Part shown: piece after piece, positions 16,203 through 28,033 of the stretch
How the letters are laid out: every line of letters begins with the position of its first letter
How positions within the stretch are numbered: the first letter of the stretch is position 1
Source of the DNA: Plantactinospora soyae
Lineage (GTDB): Bacteria; Actinomycetota; Actinomycetes; Mycobacteriales; Micromonosporaceae
Direction of reading: 5' to 3'
DNA length: 64,000 nt
Assembly (NCBI RefSeq): GCF_014874095.1
Contig: NZ_JADBEB010000001.1
Coordinates: forward strand, 4,960,001-5,024,000
Translations under genes and position numbers: made by a program
Notes under the pieces: model-generated
Told to the model about the DNA's origin: nothing
The model's database searches: none
The model's input: the letters and a program-made list of their open reading frames with translations, nothing else

Positions 16203-17990
16203 TCAGCCCGCCGAGCCCTTCGGCACCCTCGGCTGGCGCTTCGTCGCCCGGCTTGTCGGCACGGGCGGCGTGTCCGCTGCGCCGGACTTGTTCTCTGAGG
16301 GCGTCTGCTCAGCGGATGTCTGCTGAGCGGGTGTCTGCTCGGCGGCGGTCTGGGCAGCGGCGGTCCGCTTCGGTGCCGCCCGCTTCGTTGGCCGGCTCGT
16401 TGGTACGAGCGGCGTGTCCGCTGTGCCGGGCTTGTTCTCCGAGGGCGTCTGCTCGGCGGCGGTCCGTTTCGGGGCCGCCCGCTTCGTCGGCCGGCTCGTT
16501 GGTACGAGCGGCGTGTCCGCTGTGCCGGACTTGTTCTCCGAGGGCGTCTGCTCAGCGGATGTCTGCTCAGCGGCCGTCCGCTTCGGTGCAGCCCGCTTCG
16601 TCGCGCGCTTCGCTGCCGGGCGCTTCGTCGCCGGACGCTCCGGAGCGGCCGAGGTCTCTCCGGTCGCCGTCCCGGTCTGGGCGGTGGCGGCGGTCGCGGT
16701 CGCCTCGCTGGCTGTCGAGGGCTGCGCCGTGACCGTGGCGGCCTGTTCCATGACCGTGGGGCTTACTGCCGTGACCGTGGGGCTTGCTGCCGTGACCGTC
16801 GGGCCTTCTGCCGTGACTGTGCCGATCTCTGCCGTGACTGGGCGGCTCTCTTGCGTGACCGGAGGCCTGTCCTGCGTGACCGTGGCGGTCTTCTCGGTGA
16901 CGGTGGGGGACTCCGTCGTGGGCGCCAGGGCCTCTGCCGTCACCGACGGTGCGTCATCCGGGACAGTCGCCGGGTCAACCGACTCAGCCGGGGCCGCCGG
17001 GACGGTCGCCGAGTCAGCGGGGATCGTCGGGACGGTCGCCGGGTCGGCCGGGATCGTTGGGACGGTTGCCGAGTCGGCCGGGATCGTTGGGACGGTCGCC
17101 GGGTCAGCGGGGATCGTTGGGACGGTTGCCGAGTCGGCCGGGATCGTCGGCGGTTCCGCCGGGGCACCCGGGGTCGTCGCCGGGGCCGCCGTGCCCTCCG
17201 GGAGCGTCGTCGACCTGCGGTCCGTACGGGTGATGTTGCGGTGCCGGCCGCGCAGCTTGAACGGCATCAGCGCGCTTTCGATCTTGGTAGCCGTGGTCAT
17301 CTTCGACTCGCCGTCCAGGCGTTCCTGGAACCGGATCGGCACCTCCAGGATGGTGTGCCCGAGCTTGGTGGCCAGGTAGTGCATCTCGACCTGGAAGCTG
17401 TACCCGTTGGACTGGACCCGCTCCAGACCGATGTCGCGCAGGGCATCGGCCCGCCAGATCTTGAAACCGGCGGTCAGGTCCCGGATCCGCACCTGGAGCA
17501 GCGTGTGGACGTAGAAGTTCGCCCACCCGCTGAGTGCCCGCCGGTAGAGCGGCCACGCCTCGTCGAGTTGTCCACCAGGTACGTAACGGGAGCCGATCAC
17601 CACACCGGCCCGGGTGGACAGTAGCGAGCCGAGCATGCCGGGCAGCGCCTCGGGCGGGTGGGACAGGTCGGCGTCCATCTGCGCGACGTACTCCGCTCCG
17701 CTGTCGAGCGCCCGGCTCATGCCGTCGACGTACGCCCGGCCGAGTCCTTCCTTCCCTGCTCGGTGTACGACCTGGATCCGCTCGGGGTGCTCGATAGCGA
17801 GTTTGTCCGCGACCTCGCCGGTGCCGTCCGGGGAGTTGTCGTCGGCGATCAGGATGCTGAGCCCGGGCAGCGGCAGGGCGAGCAGCCGCTCGACCAGCAC
17901 CGGAATGTTCCCCGCTTCGTTGTAGGTCGGAACGACGACGGTCAGGCGAGCGTCCCGCCAGGGGGTGGGCAGCTGTACGGGTTCGATCAT
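16203..17990 (-). CDS. Polyprenol-phosphate mannosyltransferase (DPM1/Ppm1-like GT2) with long repetitive tail
   Basis: 595 residues. The GT2 domain (1-250) is a clear dolichol/polyprenol monophosphate mannose synthase: VVVPTYNEAGNIPVLVERLL, DDNSPDGTGEVAD, the DxD at 106-108 (QMDADLSHPPE), GSRYVPGG, and QSNGYSFQVEMHYLA. It would move mannose from GDP-mannose to a polyprenyl phosphate for membrane-side mannosylation. From about 255 on the protein is low complexity: five PTIPAD(S/P)ATV decapeptides (281-330), then heptads of the type (T/P)VT(A/Q)xxx, then three Lys/Arg-rich blocks built on TKRAAPKRTAAEQT. Ordinary homologues end near residue 250-270. The ATG at 17990 has GAGGATG upstream; AGCGTA at 18029-18034 could be its -10 box in reverse. 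No acyltransferase or membrane half is fused. Confidence 0.9.
   Translation of the reverse strand: MIEPVQLPTPWRDARLTVVVPTYNEAGNIPVLVERLLALPLPGLSILIADDNSPDGTGEVADKLAIEHPERIQVVHRAGKEGLGRAYVDGMSRALDSGAEYVAQMDADLSHPPEALPGMLGSLLSTRAGVVIGSRYVPGGQLDEAWPLYRRALSGWANFYVHTLLQVRIRDLTAGFKIWRADALRDIGLERVQSNGYSFQVEMHYLATKLGHTILEVPIRFQERLDGESKMTTATKIESALMPFKLRGRHRNITRTDRRSTTLPEGTAAPATTPGAPAEPPTIPADSATVPTIPADPATVPTIPADSATVPTIPADPATVPTIPADSATVPAAPAESVDPATVPDDAPSVTAEALAPTTESPTVTEKTATVTQDRPPVTQESRPVTAEIGTVTAEGPTVTAASPTVTAVSPTVMEQAATVTAQPSTASEATATAATAQTGTATGETSAAPERPATKRPAAKRATKRAAPKRTAAEQTSAEQTPSENKSGTADTPLVPTSRPTKRAAPKRTAAEQTPSENKPGTADTPLVPTSRPTKRAAPKRTAAAQTAAEQTPAQQTSAEQTPSENKSGAADTPPVPTSRATKRQPRVPKGSAG
17001..17150 (-). 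repeat. 30-bp minisatellite in mannosyltransferase tail
   Basis: Five tandem 30-bp units, each coding PTIPADSATV or PTIPADPATV, alternating S and P. The reading frame is kept. Copy-number change would lengthen or shorten the tail by 10 residues. Confidence 0.9.
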
Positions 17991-18294: not shown

Positions 18295-20370
18295 ATGTTT
18301 ACTCCTCCTGCTCCAGGGAACCCGCCCGCCGTGCGCAACGACCAGGTCGACCCGCATCAGTGCAGGTCAGGGGCACCGCACGGTGGCCCGACCGGGCTGT
18401 GGGCCAGGCCGGGTCTGTTCGACGCGGTGCTCTTCGACCGGGACGGCACTCTGGTGTACGACGTGCCGTACAACCCAGACCCGGACCGGGTACGTGCCAT
18501 GCCGGGCGCGAGGGAGGCGCTGGACCGACTTCGTGACGCCGGCTTGCGCCTGGGGGTGGTGAGCAACCAGTCCGGCCTTGCCCGTGGCCGGTTCACCGCC
18601 GCCGATCTGGCCCGGGTCAACGCCCGGGTCGACGAGCTTCTGGGCCCGTTCGACACCTGGCAGGTGTGTCCGCATGCGGAGCCGGACCCCGGGGCGGAGT
18701 CGTGCCGCTGCCGCAAACCCGCGCCCGGGCTGATCCGGGACGCGGCCCGGGCGCTGGGTACCGACCCCACCCGGTGCGTCGTGGTCGGCGACATCGGTAT
18801 CGACATGACGGCGGCCGGCGCGGCCGGCGCGGCCGGAATACTGGTTCCCACGCCCGTCACCCGGGCCGGTGAGGTGGCGGCCGCACCCGCGCTGGCCGGA
18901 AACCTGCGCGACGCGGTCGACCTGATTCTTCAACGTCACCGGTTGGCGGACGCCGAACGGCCCGGGGCCGTCCCGCGCGGGCGCCCCCGCTGCGTCCTGG
19001 TCGCCCGACCGGACTCGGCCGGGGACGTGCTGGTCACCGGCCCGGCGATCCGGGCCGTGGCGGCCGGCGCGGACCGGGTGGTGATGCTCTGCGGACCGCG
19101 TGGCCGGGCCGCCGCCGAACTGCTGCCCGGCATCGACGAGCTGGTCGAGTGGCGGCTGCCCTGGATCGACCCGGAGCCCGAGCGGATCGACCGGGCCGAA
19201 GTGGACCGGCTGACGAGCCGACTGGCCGCGATCGGGGCGGACGAGGCGGTGCTGTTCACCTCGTTCCACCAGTCCGCGCTACCACTCGCGCTGGTACTGA
19301 GGATGGCCGGAATACGGCGGATCTCGGCGATCAGCGAGGACTATCCGGGATCGCTGCTCGACGTACGGCACCGGGTGCCGACCGGTATCCCCGAGACCGA
19401 GCGGGCGTTGTCGCTCGCCGCGGCGGCGGGGTTCCGACTGCCGCCCGGCGACGAGCCGGTGCTCCGGCTGCTGCCCGACGCTCCGCAGGCCGTCCGGGTC
19501 GACGATCCGCAGCGTGTCCGGGTCGACGATCCGCACGCCGGGTCGGCCGTCCGGGTTGATGGTCCGGCTGCCGGGGTTGATGGTCCGGCTGCCGCGTCGG
19601 CCGGCGATGAACTGCCCGAACCGGGTTATGTGGTGGTGCATCCCGGCTCGTCGGTGCCGGCGCGGGCCTGCCCACCCGAACTCTGTGCGGAGTTCGTCCG
19701 CGCGCTGAGCGCCGCCGGGCACCGGGTGGTGGTCACCGGTGGACCGGGGGAGGGGGCGTTGACCGCGCAGGTCGCCGGGCGTACCGGCATCGACCTCGGT
19801 GGACAGACCTCGCTGACCGGGCTGGCCGGGATCATCGCGCGGGCGGGCTGCCTGGTGGTCGGCAACACCGGCCCGGCACACCTGGCCGCCGCACTGGGCG
19901 TTCCGGTGGTCAGTCTCTTCGCCCCGACGGTCCCCTTCGGACAGTGGGGGCCGTACCGGGTGCCCACCGTACGCCTCGGCGACGCCGACGCCGCCTGCCG
20001 GCACAGCCGGGCCACCGCCTGCCCGGTGCCCGGACACCCCTGCCTGTCCCGGATCGAGCCGCGTCAGGTGGTCGAGGCGGTCCGGTTGCTCAGTCGCGAC
20101 GACGATCCCGCCGACCCCTCCGGTCGGGTCAATCCCTCCGGTCGTGTCAATCCCGCCGGTCGTGCCGACCCTTCCGATCGTGCCGAGCCCCCCGATCGTG
20201 CCGAGCCTTCCGATCGTGCCGAGCCCGCAGGTCGTGCCGAGCCTGGCGGTCGCGTCGAGGTCCCGGACGCCGCCGGCTCGACCCCGGTCCTGACCGGCAG
20301 CGGCACCTCGGGCGGTCTGGCGGTACCCGCCGGGCCGACGCGGTCCGCCGTTCGGGAGGTCCGGCCGTGA
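18295..20370 (+). CDS. GmhB-like HAD phosphatase fused to GT9 heptosyltransferase
   Basis: 691-residue two-domain protein. Residues about 40-205 are a HAD phosphatase of the GmhB type: FDRDGTLV (nucleophile D48, D50), SNQSGLARG, the zinc loop CPH(125-127)...CRC(137-139)RKPAPG, and VVVGDIGIDM. GmhB removes the C7 phosphate of heptose 1,7-bisphosphate. Residues about 225-610 are a GT9 ADP-heptose-type glycosyltransferase: RPDSAGDVLVTGPAIRAV, VVVHPGSSVPARACPPE, GGQTSLTGLAGIIARAGCLVVGNTGPAHLAAAL, SLFAPTVPFGQWGPY. A repeat insert (VRVDDPQRVRVDDP, near 19495-19600) and a C-terminal run of eight hexapeptides are additions. The start is uncertain: GGAGG is too close to the ATG at 18295, and GTG 18330 is an alternative. 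It overlaps the next gene as GTGA. Confidence 0.87.
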   Translation: MFTPPAPGNPPAVRNDQVDPHQCRSGAPHGGPTGLWARPGLFDAVLFDRDGTLVYDVPYNPDPDRVRAMPGAREALDRLRDAGLRLGVVSNQSGLARGRFTAADLARVNARVDELLGPFDTWQVCPHAEPDPGAESCRCRKPAPGLIRDAARALGTDPTRCVVVGDIGIDMTAAGAAGAAGILVPTPVTRAGEVAAAPALAGNLRDAVDLILQRHRLADAERPGAVPRGRPRCVLVARPDSAGDVLVTGPAIRAVAAGADRVVMLCGPRGRAAAELLPGIDELVEWRLPWIDPEPERIDRAEVDRLTSRLAAIGADEAVLFTSFHQSALPLALVLRMAGIRRISAISEDYPGSLLDVRHRVPTGIPETERALSLAAAAGFRLPPGDEPVLRLLPDAPQAVRVDDPQRVRVDDPHAGSAVRVDGPAAGVDGPAAASAGDELPEPGYVVVHPGSSVPARACPPELCAEFVRALSAAGHRVVVTGGPGEGALTAQVAGRTGIDLGGQTSLTGLAGIIARAGCLVVGNTGPAHLAAALGVPVVSLFAPTVPFGQWGPYRVPTVRLGDADAACRHSRATACPVPGHPCLSRIEPRQVVEAVRLLSRDDDPADPSGRVNPSGRVNPAGRADPSDRAEPPDRAEPSDRAEPAGRAEPGGRVEVPDAAGSTPVLTGSGTSGGLAVPAGPTRSAVREVRP
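20116..20259 (+). repeat. 18-bp minisatellite at the C-terminus of the GmhB-GT9 protein
   Basis: Eight tandem 18-bp units coding PSGRVN, PSGRVN, PAGRAD, PSDRAE, PPDRAE, PSDRAE, PAGRAE and PGGRVE. The units are in frame and highly charged, so the encoded tail is probably disordered. Confidence 0.88.
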
Positions 20371-21344
20371 ACATCCTGCTCTGGCACGTGCACGGGTCCT
20401 GGACCACCGCATTCGTGCACGGCAAGCACCGGTACCTCGTCCCGGTCACCCCGGACCGTGGCCCGTACGGCCGGGGCCGGGCCCGTACCTACCAGTGGCC
20501 GGACACCGTGGACGAGGTGACCCCGGAGGAGTTGGCCGACGCGGAGATCGACCTGGTGATCCTGCAACGGCCGGAGGAACTCGACCTCGCCACCGAGTGG
20601 CTGGGCCGGCGGGTCGGTCGGGACGTACCGGCGATTTTCGTCGAGCACAACACGCCGAAGCAGGGGGACGTGCCGAACAGCCGGCATCCGATGGCGGACC
20701 GCGACGACCTGCTGATCGCACACGTCACGCACTTCAACGCGCTGTTCTGGGACACCGGCGGTACCCGGACAGCCGTGGTCGAGCACGGCATCGTGGCGCC
20801 GACCACGCACTACACCGGAGAACTGGACCGGCTCGCGGTGGTGGTCAACGAGCCGGTCCGCCGGTGGCGGGTGACCGGGACCGACCTGTTGCCCCGGTTC
20901 GCCGAGATCGCTCCGCTCGACGTCTTCGGGATGGGGGTGGCCGGACTGCCGGACCGGCTGGGGCTGCCGGCCGACCGGATGACCGTCTACGACGACCTGC
21001 CGCAGAGCCGGATGCAGACGGAGATCGGACGGCGGCGGGCGTACCTGCACCTGTGTCGGTGGACCTCGCTGGGGCTGAGCCTGATCGAGGCGATGGCCAT
21101 GGGCATGCCGGTGGTCGTCCTCGCCGCGACCGAGGCGGTGGCGGCCGTACCACCGGACGCCGGGGCGCTGTCCACCCGGATCGACACCCTGACCGATGCC
21201 GCCCGACGGCTCATCGAGGAGCCGGCGACCGCCCGCCGGCTCGGTGACCGGGCCCGCGAGGCGGCGCAGGGCCGCTACGGCCTGGATCGGTTCCTGGCGG
21301 ACTGGGATCGGTTGCTGGAGGAGGAAATATGCGCGTCGCGATGA
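20367..21344 (+). CDS. Glycosyltransferase, GT4-like C-terminal fold
   Basis: 325 residues. The C-terminal donor-binding half carries YLHLCRWTSLGLSLIEAMAMGMPVVVLAATEAVAAVPPDAGALS, the Glu-x7-Glu-like signature of GT-B retaining enzymes. The N-terminal half (MNILLWHVHGSWTTAFVHGKHRYLVPV, IFVEHNTPKQGDVPNSRHPMADRDDL) is not a named family to me but recurs in actinobacterial glycan clusters. The GTG start overlaps the previous stop by 4 nt, and the 3' end overlaps the next gene by 16 nt, so translation is coupled. It is expected to add one sugar in the heptose-containing glycan; donor and linkage are unknown. Confidence 0.8.
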   Translation: MNILLWHVHGSWTTAFVHGKHRYLVPVTPDRGPYGRGRARTYQWPDTVDEVTPEELADAEIDLVILQRPEELDLATEWLGRRVGRDVPAIFVEHNTPKQGDVPNSRHPMADRDDLLIAHVTHFNALFWDTGGTRTAVVEHGIVAPTTHYTGELDRLAVVVNEPVRRWRVTGTDLLPRFAEIAPLDVFGMGVAGLPDRLGLPADRMTVYDDLPQSRMQTEIGRRRAYLHLCRWTSLGLSLIEAMAMGMPVVVLAATEAVAAVPPDAGALSTRIDTLTDAARRLIEEPATARRLGDRAREAAQGRYGLDRFLADWDRLLEEEICASR

Positions 21345-22546
21345 TCTCCGAGCACGCCAGCCCGCTCGCCGTGCTCGGCGGTGAGGACGCCGGCGGCCAG
21401 AACACCCACGTCGCCGAACTCTCCGCCGCACTGGCCGACGCGGGGCACGACGTCCGGGTCTACACGCGCCGGGACGACTCGGACGGGCCGACGGCGGTAC
21501 GGATGCGCGACGGCGTCGAGGTGGTACACGTACCCGCCGGGCCGCCGGAACCGATCGCCAAGGACGAGATGTTGCCGTACATGAAGGATTTCAGCCGGTG
21601 GCTGGTCGCACAGTGGCGCGGCGACGGCTGGATTCCCGACGTGGCCCACGCGCACTTCTGGATGAGCGGGCTGGCCGGGATCGCGGCCGGCCGGCAGACT
21701 GGGGTCCCGGTGGTGCAGACCTATCACGCGCTGGGCACCGTCAAGCGGCGGCACCAGGGCGCGATGGACACCAGTCCGGCCCGGCGGGTCGGCTACGAGC
21801 GGGCCCTGGGCCGGGCCGTGGACCGGGTCATCGCGCAGAGCCAGGACGAGGTCCGGGAACTGGTCCGGATGGGCGTGCCGCAGGCCCGGATGACGGTGAT
21901 CCCGTCCGGGGTCAACGACGAGACCTTCTCGCCCGACGGTCCGGCCGTGCCCCGGGTACCGGGCCGGCCCCGGATCCTGACCGTGGGCCGGCTGGTCGAG
22001 CGCAAGGGCTACCAGGACCTGATCCGGGCCATGCCCACGATCCCGGACGCCGAGTGCGTGGTGGTCGGCGGACCGCCGGCCGGCGACGTCGACGACGACC
22101 CGCAGGTGCGACGGCTACGGGCGCTGGCCGAGGAGGTCGGGGTCGCCGACCGGGTACGGCTGATCGGCGCCGTGCCGCGCGAGGAGATGCCCTACTGGTA
22201 CCGCTCCGCCGACGTGCTCGTCGCCGCCCCCTGGTACGAGCCGTTCGGGCTCACCCCGCTGGAGGCGATGGCGTGCGGCGTACCGGTGATCGGCACCGCG
22301 GTCGGCGGCCTCACCGACACGGTGGTGGACGGCAGCACCGGCGATCTGGTGCCGCCCCGCGATCCCGCCGCCCTGGGCACGGCCGTCCGGGACCTGCTGG
22401 CCGACCGGGTACGCCGGTTCGCGTACGCCGGTGCCGCCCTGGACCGGGCCCGGCGCTGGTACTCGTGGACCCGGACCGCCGACCAGGTAGCCGCCGTCTA
22501 CGCGGCAGTCAGCGAGGTACGGCGGCCGAGCGGGGTGGTCGCCTGA
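21329..22546 (+). CDS. GT4 family glycosyltransferase
   Basis: 405-residue retaining GT-B enzyme. N-terminal acceptor domain: GGEDAGGQNTHVAELSAALADAGHDVRVYTRRDD, HAHFWMSGLAGIAAG. Donor domain: ILTVGRLVERKGYQDLIRAM, VVVGGPPAGDVDDDPQVRRLR, and WYEPFGLTPLEAMACGVPVIGTAVGGLTDTVVDGSTG with both catalytic glutamates. The GGQNTHV segment resembles MshA and sucrose-phosphate synthase-like GT4 enzymes. GGAGGA precedes the ATG, and its start lies inside the previous gene. The 3' end shares one base with the GmhA start (TGATG). Substrate inferred only from context. Confidence 0.88.
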   Translation: MRVAMISEHASPLAVLGGEDAGGQNTHVAELSAALADAGHDVRVYTRRDDSDGPTAVRMRDGVEVVHVPAGPPEPIAKDEMLPYMKDFSRWLVAQWRGDGWIPDVAHAHFWMSGLAGIAAGRQTGVPVVQTYHALGTVKRRHQGAMDTSPARRVGYERALGRAVDRVIAQSQDEVRELVRMGVPQARMTVIPSGVNDETFSPDGPAVPRVPGRPRILTVGRLVERKGYQDLIRAMPTIPDAECVVVGGPPAGDVDDDPQVRRLRALAEEVGVADRVRLIGAVPREEMPYWYRSADVLVAAPWYEPFGLTPLEAMACGVPVIGTAVGGLTDTVVDGSTGDLVPPRDPAALGTAVRDLLADRVRRFAYAGAALDRARRWYSWTRTADQVAAVYAAVSEVRRPSGVVA

Positions 22547-23322
22547 TGACCGGGTCGACGACCGACGTGTTGGACAGTCACCTCACCGGGCTCGCCTCGG
22601 CGCTGCTGCCGTACCGGACGGAGGCGGCCCGGCTCGACCGTTGGGGCGACGAACTGGCCGGGCTGCTCGCCGGGGGTGGTCGGCTGCTGGTCGCCGGCAA
22701 CGGTGGCAGCGCGGCCGAGGCCCAGCACCTGGCCGCCGAGCTGGTCGGCAAGTTGTGCGACGACCGGGCACCACTGTCCGCGATCGCGCTCTGCGCCGAG
22801 ACCTCGTCGCTGACCGCGATCGGCAACGACTACGGCTTCGACGAGGTCTTCGCCCGGCAGGTACGGGCACATGGGCGTTCCGGGGACATCCTGCTGCTCC
22901 TGTCCACCAGTGGCCGCAGCGCGAACCTGGTCCGGGCCGCGCGCGCCGGCCGGGAACTGGGGATGCGCTGCTGGGCGTTCACCGGCCCGACCCCGAACCC
23001 ACTCGCCGACGCCTGCACCGAGGTCCTCGCGGTGCCCTCGCCGGACACCCAGGTCGTGCAGGAGCTGCACCTGGTCTCGGCACACGTGCTCTGCGCCTAC
23101 GTCGACGCGTACCTGCCGGTGCTGTTCGGCCCGGCCGGCGGGTACGGCACCGGCCGGCACCTCCCCGCCGCCACCCCGTACGCCGGATCGGCGCCGGGAC
23201 GTTCCGGACCAGCCCCGGAGCACTCCGGCAGCGGGCAGGTACGGCCGTCCGGCGTCGAGGACGAACTCGTGCTGCGGGTACCGGGAACGCTGGACCTTCA
23301 CCGGAGCGAGGAGGGGCCGTGA
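22546..23322 (+). CDS. gmhA: Sedoheptulose-7-phosphate isomerase (GmhA-like SIS protein)
   Basis: 258 residues. Converts sedoheptulose 7-phosphate to D-glycero-D-manno-heptose 7-phosphate, the first committed step to ADP-heptose. SIS-domain motifs are complete: AGNGGSAAEAQHLAAELVGK, IGNDYGFDEVFARQV, STSGRSANLVRAA, and the C-terminal DTQVVQELHLVSAHVLC, holding the Glu and His of the GmhA active site. The family usually ends near residue 200; here about 55 extra low-complexity residues follow (GTGRHLPAATPYAGSAPGRSG...). The ATG overlaps the previous stop by one base and the stop overlaps the HldE start by four. I infer gmhA from motif match plus the adjacent HldE and GmhB genes. Confidence 0.9.
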   Translation: MTGSTTDVLDSHLTGLASALLPYRTEAARLDRWGDELAGLLAGGGRLLVAGNGGSAAEAQHLAAELVGKLCDDRAPLSAIALCAETSSLTAIGNDYGFDEVFARQVRAHGRSGDILLLLSTSGRSANLVRAARAGRELGMRCWAFTGPTPNPLADACTEVLAVPSPDTQVVQELHLVSAHVLCAYVDAYLPVLFGPAGGYGTGRHLPAATPYAGSAPGRSGPAPEHSGSGQVRPSGVEDELVLRVPGTLDLHRSEEGP

Positions 23323-25205
23323 CCAGAAAACTGGTGGTCGTCGGCGACACGCTGCTCGACCGCGACGTGGAGGGCGTGGTGAACCGGCTCTGCCCGGACT
23401 CGCCGGTCCCGGTGCTGGACGAGAACAACAGCGTCGACCGGCCCGGTGGGGCGGGGCTGGCCGCACTCTTCGCCGCCGGGCGCGGGTACGAGGTCGCCCT
23501 CGTCACGGCGCTGGCCGACGACGAGGGGGGAGCGCGGCTGAGTTCACTGCTCACCGCCGCCGGGGTGCAGATATACGGGCTTCCGCTGCCCGGTGCCACC
23601 CCGGAGAAGATCCGGCTGCGGACCCGGGGTCGGGTGCTGCTGCGCCACGACCGGGGTGGACCGGCCGGGCCACCCGGTGAGCCGAGCGACGCCGTACTGG
23701 AGTTGCTGGCCGGCGCGGCGGGGATCCTGGTCAGCGACTACGGCCGGGGAGTGGCTCGACTGCCGGCCCTGCGGGTGGCGCTGGCGAACACCACCGCACC
23801 GATCGTCTGGGACCCACACCCGAGGGGCCCGGCGGCGGTGCCGGGCGTGCGACTGGCCACGCCCAACGAGGTGGAGGCACGGGAGCTGGCCGGGCTGGCG
23901 AGCGGCGGTTCGCGGCTGGCCATCGCGTCGCGGTGCGCCCAGGCGCTGCGCCAGCGGTGGCGGGTCGGTGCGGTCGCGGTGACCCTCGGCGGCGAGGGCG
24001 CGCTGCTCTCGCACGCCGGTGGCACGCCACTGGCGGTCGCCTCGCCGACCTGCGCCGACGGTGACACCTGCGGCGCCGGCGACCGGTTCGCCGCCGCGGC
24101 GACGCTGGCCCTGGCGGACGGGGCGCTGGTCTCCGAGGCGGTGCAGCAGGCGGTGGCCGAGGCTTCTGAGTACGTGGCCGACGGCGGTGTGGCGACCGCC
24201 GTGCCGGCGGCCTCGGCCGGAGGGCGGATGCGCCCGGCCGGCAAGGCGCCCGCTTCGGCTCCGGCCTCGGTGAGCGGGCCGGCAGCAGTGAGCGGGCCGG
24301 CAGCGGTGAGCGGGCCGGCAGCGGTGAGCGGCTCGGCGGCGCTGAGCCGATCGGCGCCCACGTCCACGACCGGAAGCGGGTCCTCGGCGGGAGGCGGGTC
24401 GACGGCGATGGGCGGGTCCGCGACCAGGTCGGCTTCGGACCCGGTGGGCGCGCCCACGTCGGCTTCGGACCCGGTGGGCGCGTCGGCGTCGGGACCGGAC
24501 CCGGTGGGCAGGTCGGCGTCGGCGCCGGGATCGGTGGGCAGGCCGGCGTCCGGGTCGGTACGACCGGCCGGGGCGGCGTCCGCGTCGGCCGGCCCGGTCC
24601 GGCCCGGCCCGGCCGGTGGCACCCAATCCGGGGCATCCGGACGAGGACGGACCGGTACCCCGGTTCGGTTCGGCGCGGCGCCGGTCATGGCGGTGGGCTG
24701 GAGCGACCGGATCGGCGCTCGGGCCGCCGGTGACGTGGTCGCCCGGGTCCGGGCCGCCGGTGGCACGGTGGTGGCGACGGGCGGCTGTTTCGACCTGCTG
24801 CACGCCGGGCACGTGGCGACGCTGGAGGCGGCCCGGCAACTCGGGGACTGCCTGGTGGTCTGCGTCAACTCCGACGACAGCGTGGCCGGACTGAAGGGGC
24901 CGGACCGGCCGTTGGTCCGACACGCCGACCGGGCCCGCCTGCTGGCCGCGCTCGGTTGCGTGGACGCGGTACTGATCTTCGACGAGTCGACCCCGCACGC
25001 GGCCCTGTCCTGGCTGCGCCCGGACGTCTGGGTCAAGGGCGGCGACTACGGCACCGGTGCCGACGGGCCGGACCTGCCGGAGGCGGAGATCCTGCACCGC
25101 TGGGGTGGGAACACGGTGGTGGTGCCGTACCTGGACGGCCGCTCCACCAGCGAGATGATCGCCGCCGCGCGGGCCGGCGGCCGACCGGGAGGACGGCCCC
25201 GGTGA
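23319..25205 (+). CDS. hldE: Bifunctional heptose kinase / adenylyltransferase (HldE-like) with long linker
   Basis: 628 residues. The kinase domain (1-295, PfkB/ribokinase fold) phosphorylates heptose 7-phosphate at C1: LVSDYGRGVARL, WDPHPRGPAAVPGVRLATPNEVEA, and CADGDTCGAGDRFAAAATLAL with the catalytic Asp255. The nucleotidyltransferase domain (about 465-628) makes ADP-heptose: GGCFDLLHAGHVATLEAARQLGD (HxGH at 495-498), NSDDSVAGLKGPDRPLV, RPDVWVKGGDY, and LDGRSTSEMI. Between them, residues 298-450 are a Ser/Ala/Gly/Pro linker with tandem SGPAAV and SDPVG-type repeats, far longer than in enterobacterial HldE, which is about 477 residues in all. GTGA overlaps couple it to both neighbours. Confidence 0.92.
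   Translation: MTRKLVVVGDTLLDRDVEGVVNRLCPDSPVPVLDENNSVDRPGGAGLAALFAAGRGYEVALVTALADDEGGARLSSLLTAAGVQIYGLPLPGATPEKIRLRTRGRVLLRHDRGGPAGPPGEPSDAVLELLAGAAGILVSDYGRGVARLPALRVALANTTAPIVWDPHPRGPAAVPGVRLATPNEVEARELAGLASGGSRLAIASRCAQALRQRWRVGAVAVTLGGEGALLSHAGGTPLAVASPTCADGDTCGAGDRFAAAATLALADGALVSEAVQQAVAEASEYVADGGVATAVPAASAGGRMRPAGKAPASAPASVSGPAAVSGPAAVSGPAAVSGSAALSRSAPTSTTGSGSSAGGGSTAMGGSATRSASDPVGAPTSASDPVGASASGPDPVGRSASAPGSVGRPASGSVRPAGAASASAGPVRPGPAGGTQSGASGRGRTGTPVRFGAAPVMAVGWSDRIGARAAGDVVARVRAAGGTVVATGGCFDLLHAGHVATLEAARQLGDCLVVCVNSDDSVAGLKGPDRPLVRHADRARLLAALGCVDAVLIFDESTPHAALSWLRPDVWVKGGDYGTGADGPDLPEAEILHRWGGNTVVVPYLDGRSTSEMIAAARAGGRPGGRPR
24271..24342 (+). repeat. 18-bp minisatellite in HldE linker
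   Basis: About four tandem 18-bp units (VSGPAA with the last unit degenerate). A looser 27-30-bp repeat coding SDPVGAPTSA-type units follows at about 24430-24545. All remain in frame. Confidence 0.85.
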
Positions 25206-25921
25206 GCGGCCGTGACGCGGGTGCCGGGGATCTCCTCGCCTCCGGTGGCGCGGTGCTGATCAGTGGCGGCGCCAGTGGACTCGGCGCGGCGGTGGCGAGC
25301 GCGGTGGCCGGGGCGGGCGGTCGGCCGTACGTGCTGGACCGGCAGGCCCCGAGCGCCGGGGTGCCGTGGCTCGAATGCGACCTGGCCGACACCCGTGCCG
25401 CCGAGGCGGCCACCCGGGAACTCGCCGAGCAGGCGGGCGGGCTGGTCGGCGTGGTCACCGCCGCCGGTGTCGACGTACCGGGGCGGCTGGGCGACGTACC
25501 GGCGCAGACCTGGGAGCGGATCGTCACGATCGACCTGTTGGCCACCGCCGCGGTGATCCGGGCCGCGCTGCCCTACCTGGAGCGCTCGGCCGGCACGGTG
25601 GTGACCGTCGCCTCGACCCTGGGCGTGAAGGCGGTCGGGGACGCCACCGCCTACTGCGCGGCCAAGTTCGGGGTGGTGGGCTTCACCCGGGCCCTCGCCG
25701 CCGAGCTCGCCGGGCAGGTCGGGGTGACGCTGCTGGTGCCGGGCGGCATGCGTACGGCGTTCTTCGACGAGCGCGACGCGCAGTACCGTCCCGGCGCCGA
25801 CGCCGTACTCAACGAGCCGGCCGACGTGGCCTCGGCCGTACTGTTCGCGCTGCGCCAACCGCCCGGATGTGCGATCCGGGAGATGGTGGTCTGCGCCGAC
25901 CGGGAATCGTCCTATCCGTGA
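25202..25921 (+). CDS. Classical short-chain dehydrogenase/reductase
   Basis: 239-residue NAD(P)-dependent oxidoreductase. Cofactor motif SGGASGLGAAVASAVAGAGG (TGxxxGxG type), then TAAGVDVPGRLGDV (NAG-equivalent), and the catalytic triad region VTVASTLGVKAVGDATAYCAAKFGVVGF with Ser, YxxxK. Its length and layout are those of classical SDRs, not of the extended SDR epimerase HldD, so it is unlikely to make L,D-heptose by the known route. It may oxidise, reduce or epimerise a sugar nucleotide or glycan intermediate. GTGA overlaps with HldE upstream and with the GT9 gene downstream show co-translation. Confidence 0.85.
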   Translation: MSGRDAGAGDLLASGGAVLISGGASGLGAAVASAVAGAGGRPYVLDRQAPSAGVPWLECDLADTRAAEAATRELAEQAGGLVGVVTAAGVDVPGRLGDVPAQTWERIVTIDLLATAAVIRAALPYLERSAGTVVTVASTLGVKAVGDATAYCAAKFGVVGFTRALAAELAGQVGVTLLVPGGMRTAFFDERDAQYRPGADAVLNEPADVASAVLFALRQPPGCAIREMVVCADRESSYP

Positions 25922-27063
25922 TCCTGGTGCTGCGTGCGCTCGGAGTGGGCGACCTGGCGACGGCGGTTCCGGCGCTGCGCGGGTTGCGCGCCGCGTTCCC
26001 CGGGCACACCCTGTCGATCGCCGCGCCGGACTGGCTGACCCCGCTGGCGGAGCTGATCGGCGACGTCGACAACGTCATTCCCGCGAACGGGCTGGACCCG
26101 GTCCACTGGGCCGGGCCGGCACCGTACTGGGCGGTCAACCTGCACGGGCGGGGGCCGCAGTCGCATCAACTGCTCGACTCCGCCGACCCGGAACGACTCT
26201 GCGCCTTCGAGTGCGCCGAGGCCGGGCACCTCGACGGTCCACAGTGGAGGCATGACGAGCACGAGGTGCACCGCTGGTGCCGGCTGCTGAGCTGGTACGG
26301 CGTTCGAGCCGACCCGGACGACCTGGACCTGCGACGTCCGGCGCCCCGTCGGGTACCGGTCGGGGTGACCGTGCTGCATCCGGGCGGCAAGGGCACCGCG
26401 CGCCGCTGGTCGCCGGGGCGGTTCGCGTCCCTGGCCCGGGAGCTGGCCCGGACCGGGCACCGGGTGGTGGTGACGGGCTCGTCGGACGAGCGGGACCTGG
26501 CGGAGCGGGTCGTCGCCGGAGCCGGCCTGCCGAACACCGCCGTGCTGGCCGGTCGACTCGACCTGCTGGAGTTGGCCGCCGTGGTCGCGCACGCCCGCCT
26601 GGTGGTCAGTACGGACACCGGGATCGCCCACCTCGCGACCGCCTATCGGGCCCCCTCCGTCGTTCTGTTCGGACCCGTCCGACCGGAGCTGTGGGGGCCG
26701 CCACCGGACCGCCCGTGGCACCGCGCACTGCACGCCACCCTCACCGGTCCGACGTCGGCCGACGCCGAAACCAACTCGACCCGGGTTCACCCGGCTGTTA
26801 CGGCTGGGCCGGCGTCGGAGGGTGCCGGGGGCGACTGGGCCCGGATCCACCCGGCCGTTACGGCTGGGCCGGCGTCGGAGGGTGCCGGGGGCGACTGGGC
26901 CCGGATCCACCCGGCCGTTACGGCCGGGCCGGCGTCGGAGGGTGCCGGAGGCGACTGGGCGGGGATCCACCCAGCGTTGGCGGCGATCGAGGTGGACGAG
27001 GTGTTGACGGTGGCGGGCGAGGTGGAGCGGGCGGGACGGAGCTGCGGTGCGGCTACGACGTAG
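25918..27063 (+). CDS. GT9 heptosyltransferase-like glycosyltransferase with 60-bp repeats
   Basis: 381 residues. GT9 signatures: MILVLRALGVGDLATAVPALRGLRAAFPGHTL at the N-terminus, VTVLHPGGKGTARRWSPGRFASLARELA, VVTGSSDERDLAERV, AGRLDLLELAAVVAHARLVVSTDTGIAHLATAYRAPSVVLFGPVRPELWGPP. Members move a heptose or related sugar from ADP-heptose. The C-terminal part (about 285-350) consists of three near-identical 20-residue repeats (HPAVTAGPASEGAGGDWARI) not expected in the family. The GTG start at 25918 overlaps the SDR stop (GTGA); the last 17 bases overlap the topoisomerase gene. Together with the GT9 domain at 18.3 kb it gives the operon two heptosyltransferase modules. Confidence 0.87.
   Translation: MILVLRALGVGDLATAVPALRGLRAAFPGHTLSIAAPDWLTPLAELIGDVDNVIPANGLDPVHWAGPAPYWAVNLHGRGPQSHQLLDSADPERLCAFECAEAGHLDGPQWRHDEHEVHRWCRLLSWYGVRADPDDLDLRRPAPRRVPVGVTVLHPGGKGTARRWSPGRFASLARELARTGHRVVVTGSSDERDLAERVVAGAGLPNTAVLAGRLDLLELAAVVAHARLVVSTDTGIAHLATAYRAPSVVLFGPVRPELWGPPPDRPWHRALHATLTGPTSADAETNSTRVHPAVTAGPASEGAGGDWARIHPAVTAGPASEGAGGDWARIHPAVTAGPASEGAGGDWAGIHPALAAIEVDEVLTVAGEVERAGRSCGAATT
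26781..26970 (+). repeat. 60-bp minisatellite in the GT9 gene
   Basis: Three consecutive 60-bp units, at 26781-26840, 26841-26900 and 26901-26960, plus a partial unit. The units differ at only a few positions. Each codes 20 residues, so the frame is preserved. Confidence 0.93.
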
Positions 27064-28033
27064 CGACCTGTCGGCCCCGGGGTACGGGCGGCGTCGGCAC
27101 GGTCGCGGCGTGAGCTTCCTGGACACCGATGGCCGGCCGATCCGGGACCGGGACGAGCTGACCCGGCTCCGTGACCTGGTGATCCCACCGGCCTGGAAGG
27201 ACGTCTGGATCTGCCCTCATCCGACGGGACACATCCAGGCGATCGGCACCGACGCGGCGGGGCGGCGGCAGTACCTCTACCACCCGACCTGGCGGCTCCG
27301 GCGGGACCAGGCGAAGTTCGACCACGTACTGGAGGTGGCCACCCGGCTGCCGATCCTGCGCGAGCGCATCGGCGCCGACCTGGCCGGCCGGGGCCTGGGC
27401 CGGCCCCGGGTGCTGGCGACGGTGGCCAGCCTGCTCGACATGGGAACCTTCCGGATCGGCAGCGACCAGTACGCGGCCGGCGACGACCCGACGTTCGGGG
27501 TGGCGACGCTGCGACCCGAGCACACCCGGACCCGGCAGGGGGCGGTGGTGTTCGAGTTCCCGGCCAAGGGTGGCATCGCGCAGGTGCGGCGGATCGACGA
27601 CGCCCAGGTCTGCCGGGTACTGCGTGACCTGCGTCAACGTCGGCGCAGTGCGCAGCGGCTGTTCGGCTACTGGGACGGGCGGTGCTGGCGGGACGTCCGC
27701 AGCGACGAGGTCAACGACTACCTGCGGAGCGCGAGCGGGGGCGAGATGACGGCCAAGGACTTCCGTACCTGGCACGCCACCGTGCTGGCCGCCACCTGGT
27801 TGGCGGGCAGCGGTCCGCAACGTTCGACCACCGGACGGCGACGTACGGTGGCGGCGGCGATGCGCGAGGTGGCCGGGCTGCTGGGCAACACCCCGACCGT
27901 GGCCCGAGCCTCCTACGTGCATCCGAGGGTGGTCGATCTCTACCACGACGGCGTGGTCCTCGACGCCGACCCGGCCTCGGACCGGCGGAACGCCGAGGCA
28001 GCCGTGCTTCAGCTGCTGCGCACGAATCGGTGA
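27047..28033 (+). CDS. DNA topoisomerase IB
   Basis: 328-residue type IB topoisomerase of the bacterial/poxvirus kind, relaxing supercoils by a 3'-phosphotyrosyl intermediate. Motifs: PPAWKDVWICPHPTGHIQAIGTDAAGRRQYLYHP (N-terminal DNA clamp), ASLLDMGTFRIGSDQYA, a KGG turn (EFPAKGGIAQVRR), TAKDFRTWHATVLAA (catalytic Arg/His region) and VARASYVHPRVVDLY with the nucleophilic Tyr. The GTG at 27047 lies inside the end of the preceding GT9 gene, so it is transcribed and translated with the glycan operon, although the function is unrelated. Hairpin arms GGGCCGCA/TGCGGCCC at 28084-28113 follow. Confidence 0.92.
   Translation: MRLRRSDLSAPGYGRRRHGRGVSFLDTDGRPIRDRDELTRLRDLVIPPAWKDVWICPHPTGHIQAIGTDAAGRRQYLYHPTWRLRRDQAKFDHVLEVATRLPILRERIGADLAGRGLGRPRVLATVASLLDMGTFRIGSDQYAAGDDPTFGVATLRPEHTRTRQGAVVFEFPAKGGIAQVRRIDDAQVCRVLRDLRQRRRSAQRLFGYWDGRCWRDVRSDEVNDYLRSASGGEMTAKDFRTWHATVLAATWLAGSGPQRSTTGRRRTVAAAMREVAGLLGNTPTVARASYVHPRVVDLYHDGVVLDADPASDRRNAEAAVLQLLRTNR

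Follow-up and report, generated by a model that had tools for sequence, protein, structure and literature searches.

Within a 64,000-nucleotide window of the genome of the actinomycete Plantactinospora soyae (contig NZ_JADBEB010000001.1; positions below count from the first base of this window), seven genes on the + strand, between about 18.4 and 27.06 kb, form an operon whose neighbouring genes overlap by 1-16 bases. As assigned by Pfam and NCBIfam, they encode a HAD-IIIA phosphatase of the GmhB type fused to a family 9 glycosyltransferase (GT9; its domain here GT9dom), a GT4-like glycosyltransferase (GT4a), an MshA-like GT4 (GT4b), the isomerase GmhA, the bifunctional HldE, a classical short-chain dehydrogenase/reductase (SDR) and a second GT9 (GT9b). 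All seven had been listed in this order, as overlapping genes, in a preliminary description made from the sequence alone, and relatives within the family (Micromonosporaceae) keep them. The operon probably represents, at a rough probability of 0.7, the form that this family has of the cwg operon of Streptomyces, and it would produce a nucleoside diphosphate (NDP)-heptose, from which its GT9 and GT4 enzymes would build a short envelope glycan. This kind of operon is already known, although chemically unsolved: it was named in Hong, Paget and Buttner 2002, as cited in PMC3902916 and PMC6767563 (published work is cited throughout for the individual passages concerned). What appears to be new is the reading of the cwg core as an NDP-heptose pathway, together with the form found in the family of the window, which has an SDR and is without the epimerase, carbamoyltransferase and GT2 genes. 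The probable dependence of a second HldE locus on the GmhA of this operon and a single-copy conserved element upstream are further new points.

In S. coelicolor, cwg comprises 12 genes, SCO6179-6190, described as a "putative cell wall glycan" operon (PMC6767563). A 12-gene operon found in Streptomyces-type loci, represented by locus L110, encodes as genes 1-6 an epimerase/dehydratase, a NodU-type carbamoyltransferase, a GT2, GmhB, a GT9 and GT4a, and as genes 7-12 GT4b, GmhA, HldE, GT9b and two GT2s. The published annotation agrees with this order. SCO6186 (cwgH), a phosphoheptose isomerase, and SCO6187 (cwgI), a bifunctional synthase/transferase (PMC5839063), are the 8th and 9th of the series, which are the positions of GmhA and HldE in L110, and the fifth gene is a GT9 here and a putative heptosyl transferase, SCO6183 (cwgE), in the literature (PMC5882110). 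In addition, the published cwg sigma-E promoter is matched at 27 of 29 positions in L110, 148 bp before an in-frame GTG (position 356, one of several in-frame GTGs), the published distance being 147 (PMC6767563). The 12-gene Streptomyces-type operon is taken to be cwg on the strength of gene position, published annotation and promoter. Its full order was found in 34 of 80 named loci, while elsewhere contig ends truncate it or genes are rearranged; these 80 come from Streptomyces and two Actinacidiphila, S. coelicolor itself not being among them, and L110-L117 are called Streptomyces-type by resemblance to them. Of the 62 named loci with assessable upstream DNA, 12 carry the published promoter at 21 or more of 29 positions, at distances of 88-176 bp (start codons placed by reference to L110), and none of 100 shuffled patterns did so in more than 1 locus.

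When its SDR is set aside, the window operon matches genes 4-10 of this series, so that GmhB, GT9, GT4a, GT4b, GmhA, HldE and GT9b correspond by position to cwgD-cwgJ. The preliminary description had considered the heptosylated polymer as not known; this needs correcting in so far as the operon matches the core of one that already has a name. The differences from cwg are the lack of cwgA (epimerase/dehydratase), cwgB (NodU-type carbamoyltransferase) and the GT2 genes cwgC, cwgK and cwgL, as well as the presence of an SDR gene before the last GT9, of the GmhB-GT9 fusion and of a conserved upstream element of its own. Because the 5' genes cwgA-C and the two 3' GT2 genes are absent, the window operon is a variant of cwg, not a full member. 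Counterparts of cwgA and cwgB elsewhere in the window genome were considered and rejected, the two carbamoyltransferase matches, 36% identical to cwgB of L110, lying in other contexts. At 3.50 Mb of the genome (L213:7557-11230), such a carbamoyltransferase (36% to cwgB) stands two genes away from an epimerase-family gene (33% to cwgA).

The heptose pathway is read from four activities, those of GmhA, of the HldE kinase, of the HldE nucleotidyltransferase and of GmhB, all of which appear to be encoded with their catalytic motifs. GmhA can be aligned with phosphoheptose isomerases of known structure, 2xbl giving the best match (E 1.4e-43), and the two halves of HldE with 5x9q (a putative cytidylyltransferase) and 4e84 (a heptose-7-phosphate kinase). 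The GmhB domain aligns with heptose-bisphosphatase chains, with the motifs DRDGT and SNQSG and a Cys-His-Cys-Cys loop that presumably has a zinc role. Relatives keep the GmhA motifs GNGGSAAxAQH, E66, STSG and QE...H (20 rows), the nucleotidyltransferase motifs GGCFDxLHxGH and WVKGGDY (17 rows) and, in the rows reaching that region, the kinase motif D(T/S/A)CGAGD (17 rows). Both GT9 domains align with heptosyltransferase chains and carry GDxxxxxPA near the N-terminus. The preliminary description had announced a complete GmhA, HldE and GmhB set, with visible active-site motifs, alongside heptosyltransferase-family enzymes in one Gram-positive operon, and this is supported by the alignments with solved chains and by the GmhA and HldE motifs kept in relatives.

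A survey of 61 genomes of the family with TIGR02199 gave a match in 44, that of the window included. The strong scores split into a window-type band of 168-186 bits (30 places, with the window) and a type with higher scores, referred to below as HldE-A. Apart from the window, the window-type band has 29 places; the loci of 26 were fetched, and their genes were called with a purpose-written simple frame-scoring script. The operon is present in 25 of these 26 loci, and because it is kept in so many, its reading frames are not due to chance. All seven genes stand in identical order in 21 of the 25, with protein identities per gene of 45-93% to the window; in the exceptions (L045, L059, L060 and L065), GT4a or GT4b is moved or was not seen. 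Locus L043 is HldE-A-like and has no operon. When 296 genomes of the class were searched with a profile of the window-type nucleotidyltransferase, 138 gave some match and 73 one of at least 196 bits, the score range of window-type nucleotidyltransferase sequences (tallied from the class-wide profile table). At least five core genes were present in 18 of the 20 class loci fetched from among these; of the other two, L114 is truncated where its contig ends and L116 holds a GmhA-HldE fusion on its own. A tree built from the nucleotidyltransferase domain, with 72 rows and 143 columns, gathers the cwg-type HldE proteins in a single clade of 53 rows (96/89), separate from HldE-A, with the window beside two genus mates; the tree program warns of few columns and of meeting long branches.

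Some of these loci have features of their own. The fusion of L116 (L116:10088-12127) comes from a Streptomyces-type genome, and the 20 kb fetched around it do not contain the rest of the operon; the sugar may be put to another use there. In L118-L121, from a second family (same order), the operon combines a carbamoyltransferase with an SDR and also has a nucleotide-sugar dehydrogenase gene, and L118 has a GT2-GmhB fusion.

With regard to the nucleotide, HldE carries YLDGRSTS as its nucleotidyltransferase motif, with Arg at position 5 of the STT motif, Tyr in first place and Ser replacing the last Thr. According to a commentary on Tang et al. 2024, the source of this "STTR5" rule, enzymes with Arg as the fifth residue of (F/L)XXGXSTT can accept CTP and UTP as well, an ability that does not strictly require Arg (PMC11461863). 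This position holds Arg in 19, His in 6 and Tyr in 1 of 26 matches from 26 family loci, and Arg in all 27 pattern matches from 88 Streptomyces-type loci. The preliminary description had named ADP-D-glycero-beta-D-manno-heptose (ADP, adenosine diphosphate) as the product. This needs correcting as to the nucleotide, which need not be ADP, since HldE bears the Arg that is reported to allow the use of CTP and UTP. The accompanying remark on ADP-heptose as a ligand of ALPK1 concerns the metabolite class and says nothing on this locus.

As for the configuration of the heptose, the usual epimerase HldD gave 13 weak matches in the window genome and none over the cut-off (best 109 of 274.6 bits), so that the D,D form is expected, barring action by the SDR or another enzyme. 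The absence of HldD, which the preliminary description had reported, is thereby upheld, but not its replacement by the SDR: HldD over the cut-off was found in none of 20 cwg-type genomes, including 7 Streptomyces-type ones without a window-type SDR in the operon, and since it is absent with and without an SDR, such a replacement is not established. Among the 20 class loci, 11 have a window-type SDR (59-69% identical), 13 a carbamoyltransferase and 6 both. No window-type SDR was found in the eight Streptomyces-type loci L110-L117, nor in the 80 named loci, where the SDRs are only about 32% identical. The Streptomyces-type loci have instead the epimerase-family cwgA, which scores 74 of 274.6 bits for HldD. 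The SDR of the window has the Ser-Tyr-Lys triad, but Asp stands where classical SDRs have Asn as their fourth catalytic residue; counting the window, 21 of 23 aligned rows show this Asp. This SDR, or cwgA in Streptomyces, could act on the heptose; a redox modification of heptose or of another sugar is a more weakly supported suggestion for the role of the SDR.

The substrate supply appears to extend beyond the operon, whose GmhA is the only strong TIGR00441 match of the genome (150 bits; the next has 25.6 bits). Other SIS_2 matches, which we take to be a PRK02947-type sugar isomerase, MurQ and an RpiR-type regulator, were rejected as a second GmhA, their sequences differing from GmhA and TIGR00441 giving one strong match only. 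At about 1.28 Mb, an HldE-A locus (L017:11682-14509) encodes an HldE whose nucleotidyltransferase exceeds the NCBI cut-off, and a GT2 gene comes next; several relatives have a third type of GT9 within about 2 kb of HldE-A, mostly on the other strand. Because the operon holds the only strong GmhA, this second locus probably depends on it for substrate. Across the 61 family genomes, 34 have both GmhA and HldE, 1 HldE only, 3 GmhA only and 23 neither (Fisher p=1.5e-12, ignoring kinship; thresholds of at least 168 bits for HldE and at least 120 bits for GmhA, tallied from printed tables), and the single HldE-only genome is 69% complete. One relative (G035, L066:9090-14671) has a window-type HldE with the kinase domain only beside a complete HldE-A, as if the latter supplied the nucleotidyltransferase, and L122 and L123 have both HldE types within about 11 kb; this adjacency fits a shared pathway.

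The regulatory region of the window operon has distinctive features. The strictly spaced element GTTTACT-N12-GGGAAC is exact at all 13 fixed bases in the window and in 13 of the 25 operon-bearing relatives, is weaker in some others, and occurs as a single copy in the 9.7-Mb genome when up to one mismatch is allowed. A divergent Ppm1-like gene, presumably of the polyprenol-phosphate mannose synthase family, lies upstream of the operon in 10 of the 25 family loci, and the element is also found in L041, L042, L047 and L048, where Ppm1 gave no match; it therefore goes with the operon and not only with ppm1. It is probably an operon-specific regulatory site. The gmhB-GT9 gene had been taken to start at 18295 in the preliminary description, but such a start touches a conserved, apparently non-coding block, and GTG 18427 is likelier. 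That the block is coding was considered and is doubted, because L055 carries a one-base indel within it. One sub-threshold Rfam match upstream of the operon was taken as chance.

Downstream, a topoisomerase IB gene is adjacent and on the same strand in 14 of the 25 family loci; outside the family it is also found near the operon in L111, L118-L120 and L178. Within the operon, HldE contains a long Ala/Ser/Pro-rich linker (24220-24710), in a gap between domains whose size differs among relatives, and GT9b has three near-identical 20-residue repeats near its C-terminus (26788-26968). All these genes are represented in Table 1.

Table 1. Genes and elements of the heptose operon and its surroundings, in window coordinates.
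Feature	Position	Strand	Remarks
gmhB-GT9 fusion	18427..20370	+	N-terminal HAD-IIIA, putative heptose-bisphosphate phosphatase; C-terminal GT9; likely start GTG 18427
GT4a, GT4-like glycosyltransferase	20367..21344	+	weak Pfam Glycos_transf_1; recurs in cwg-type operons
GT4b, MshA-related GT4	21329..22546	+	TIGR03449 251 bits, cut-off of 462.5 not reached; Pfam GT4
gmhA, putative sedoheptulose-7-phosphate isomerase	22546..23322	+	TIGR00441 150 bits; PDB 2xbl E=1.4e-43
hldE, putative heptose-7-phosphate kinase and heptose-1-phosphate nucleotidyltransferase (GRSTS)	23319..25205	+	PfkB kinase and nucleotidyltransferase domains
Classical SDR, NAD-type (from Asp after beta-2, inferred)	25202..25921	+	Ser-Tyr-Lys kept; Asp in place of the catalytic Asn
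GT9b, second GT9 (heptosyltransferase family)	25918..27063	+	DTGxAHL site kept
Conserved upstream element GTTTACT-N12-GGGAAC	18297..18321	+	probable operon-specific regulatory site
Topoisomerase IB (context)	27047..28033	+	overlaps or directly follows GT9b; possibly co-transcribed
Ppm1-like GT2 with repetitive tail (context)	16203..17990	-	divergent from the operon

While the identities of the genes, the conservation of motifs and operon and the agreement with cwg in gene order and promoter are shown, the four biosynthetic reactions are inferred from family knowledge and the conserved motifs. GmhA would isomerise sedoheptulose 7-phosphate, the kinase domain of HldE would form heptose 1,7-bisphosphate, the GmhB domain would remove the 7-phosphate, and the nucleotidyltransferase domain would lead to the NDP-heptose, which would stay D,D at this stage in a genome without HldD. 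The two GT9 and two GT4 enzymes would then use NDP-heptose, and probably other donors too, in the cytoplasm, assembling on a carrier a short glycan that would become part of the cell envelope. Its envelope location is the more weakly supported part, drawn by analogy from the sigma-E control of cwg in S. coelicolor. In Streptomyces, the epimerase, carbamoyltransferase and GT2 genes would decorate or extend the product; the family of the window lacks them and has an SDR gene in the operon.

The predicted pathway shares its first four reactions and its GT9 family with the Gram-negative route to ADP-L-glycero-D-manno-heptose (GmhA, HldE, GmhB and HldD, followed by WaaC/WaaF), which serves lipopolysaccharide (LPS), a molecule that Gram-positive bacteria are not known to make. 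It differs from that route in having no HldD over the cut-off, in the Asn of GT9dom and in its scores below the curated cut-offs. Tridomain NDP-heptose synthetases of actinobacteria, reportedly described by Tang et al. in 2022, unite in one protein the isomerase, kinase and nucleotidyltransferase domains that the window also has. Two separate genes encode GmhA and HldE in the window, and fused versions are found in the relatives L116, L122 and L123.

Several observations weigh against reading the operon as a cwg form that makes NDP-heptose for an envelope glycan. None of the four pathway proteins reaches its NCBI curated cut-off: GmhA scores 150 of 209 bits, the HldE nucleotidyltransferase 167 of 181.5, the HldE kinase 114 of 345, and the GmhB domain 73 of 149.6 and 108 of 178 against two cut-offs. 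Because all score below, sequence comparison identifies them as clear homologues rather than curated equivalogs. GT9dom has NTGPAHL, with Asn at the place of a WaaC Asp that we take to be the donor-site residue (the roles of GT9 residues being likewise assumed), so that this domain may not use NDP-heptose; GT9b keeps DTG, and the donors of the two GT9s may therefore differ. The operon contains no flippase, polymerase or ABC exporter gene, and export would have to be encoded elsewhere. Heptose is absent from the described Streptomyces wall polymers (teichulosonic acid, poly(diglycosyl 1-phosphate)), as far as the passages describing them go, and a literature search on heptose in actinomycete walls returned nothing relevant.

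The link to cwg and to envelope stress meets objections of the same kind. Besides the absence of S. coelicolor sequence from the comparison and the warning on the tree, the published table passage covers 8 of the 12 cwg genes, and it labels SCO6182 (cwgD), at the position that is GmhB here, as a "putative dehydratase" (PMC5839063); this label may perhaps be due to the kinship of GmhB with bifunctional HisB. A close match to the published promoter is missing in 50 of the 62 Streptomyces-type loci with assessable upstream DNA, so that the sigma-E promoter may not define the cwg kind, and no exact copy of the S. coelicolor promoter turned up when the genome collection was scanned for it. AAC-N15-18-CGTC, the published promoter form, is absent from the 480 bases around the start of the window operon and occurs in 2 of 26 family upstream regions, which is chance level (7.6% per shuffled region); a looser AAC-N16-18-TC pattern has one match in the window upstream region and is uninformative. 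Because the window is without the sigma-E form and most Streptomyces-type loci are without a close match, the envelope-stress argument may not transfer to the window operon.

The lack of a polymerase and an exporter would also suit a transfer of heptose not to a wall polymer but to some small acceptor inside the cell or in its membrane, such as a glycolipid, a small molecule of inositol type or a protein. GT4b is closest to MshA, a D-inositol-3-phosphate glycosyltransferase, and heptosylation of proteins by aah is reported from E. coli (PMC11461863). GT4a is predicted to have a GT-B fold (mean predicted local distance difference test, pLDDT, of 84), whose nearest solved folds are BshA, TarM and PimB'; BshA and PimB' among them point the same way, although this model appears ordinary and names no acceptor. 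Four glycosyltransferases, with more of them and a carbamoyltransferase in the Streptomyces-type operons, suggest rather a multi-residue oligosaccharide, and the sigma-E control of cwg in S. coelicolor favours the envelope (PMC6767563). A small acceptor is on the whole unlikely but not negligible.

The operon might also be a compact gene cluster for a natural product that carries heptose and is secreted, in line with the uses of ADP-heptose in actinomycetes found in the literature, septacidin and hygromycin B in Streptomyces (PMC11461863). These pathways resemble the present one in that ADP-heptose is made in a Gram-positive, and their products are antibiotics. Unlike natural-product clusters, which are patchily distributed, the window operon is kept family-wide, and its nucleotidyltransferase type recurs through the class at the frequency given above. 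The longest gene call in the window has 764 residues, so that no polyketide synthase or nonribosomal peptide synthetase (PKS/NRPS) megasynthase lies nearby, most other window genes being known from their length and not from family scans. Moreover, cwg of S. coelicolor is induced by vancomycin in a partly sigma-E-dependent manner (PMC6767563). On these grounds a septacidin-like cluster is less likely, and a natural product in general is improbable. Slightly more improbable still is a pathway product other than manno-heptose, from a different 7-phosphosugar or as a different nucleotide sugar. The scores below the curated cut-offs, the STTR5 Arg of HldE, associated with CTP and UTP use, and the altered residue at the WaaC Asp in the fusion GT9 speak for it, but GmhA, both HldE activities and GmhB stand together, GmhA and HldE co-occur across genomes, and the motifs align with solved heptose enzymes.

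A broader and more tentative picture may be considered, for which the odds are somewhat short of even. Many actinobacterial families would possess a previously undescribed D,D-manno-heptose envelope glycoconjugate, which in monoderms would correspond to the inner core of LPS, with a cwg-type core built from at least one NDP-heptose, linked to wall stress in some Streptomyces, finished in lineage-specific ways, and with a second HldE/GT2 locus sharing the supply. Lineage-specific finishing, if true, would consist of carbamoylation and extra GT2 sugars in Streptomyces and of SDR modification in the family of the window. The NDP-heptose reading turns the "putative cell wall glycan" into a chemically testable heptose hypothesis, and a heptose glycan in monoderm bacteria, if true, would tie heptose less closely to LPS.

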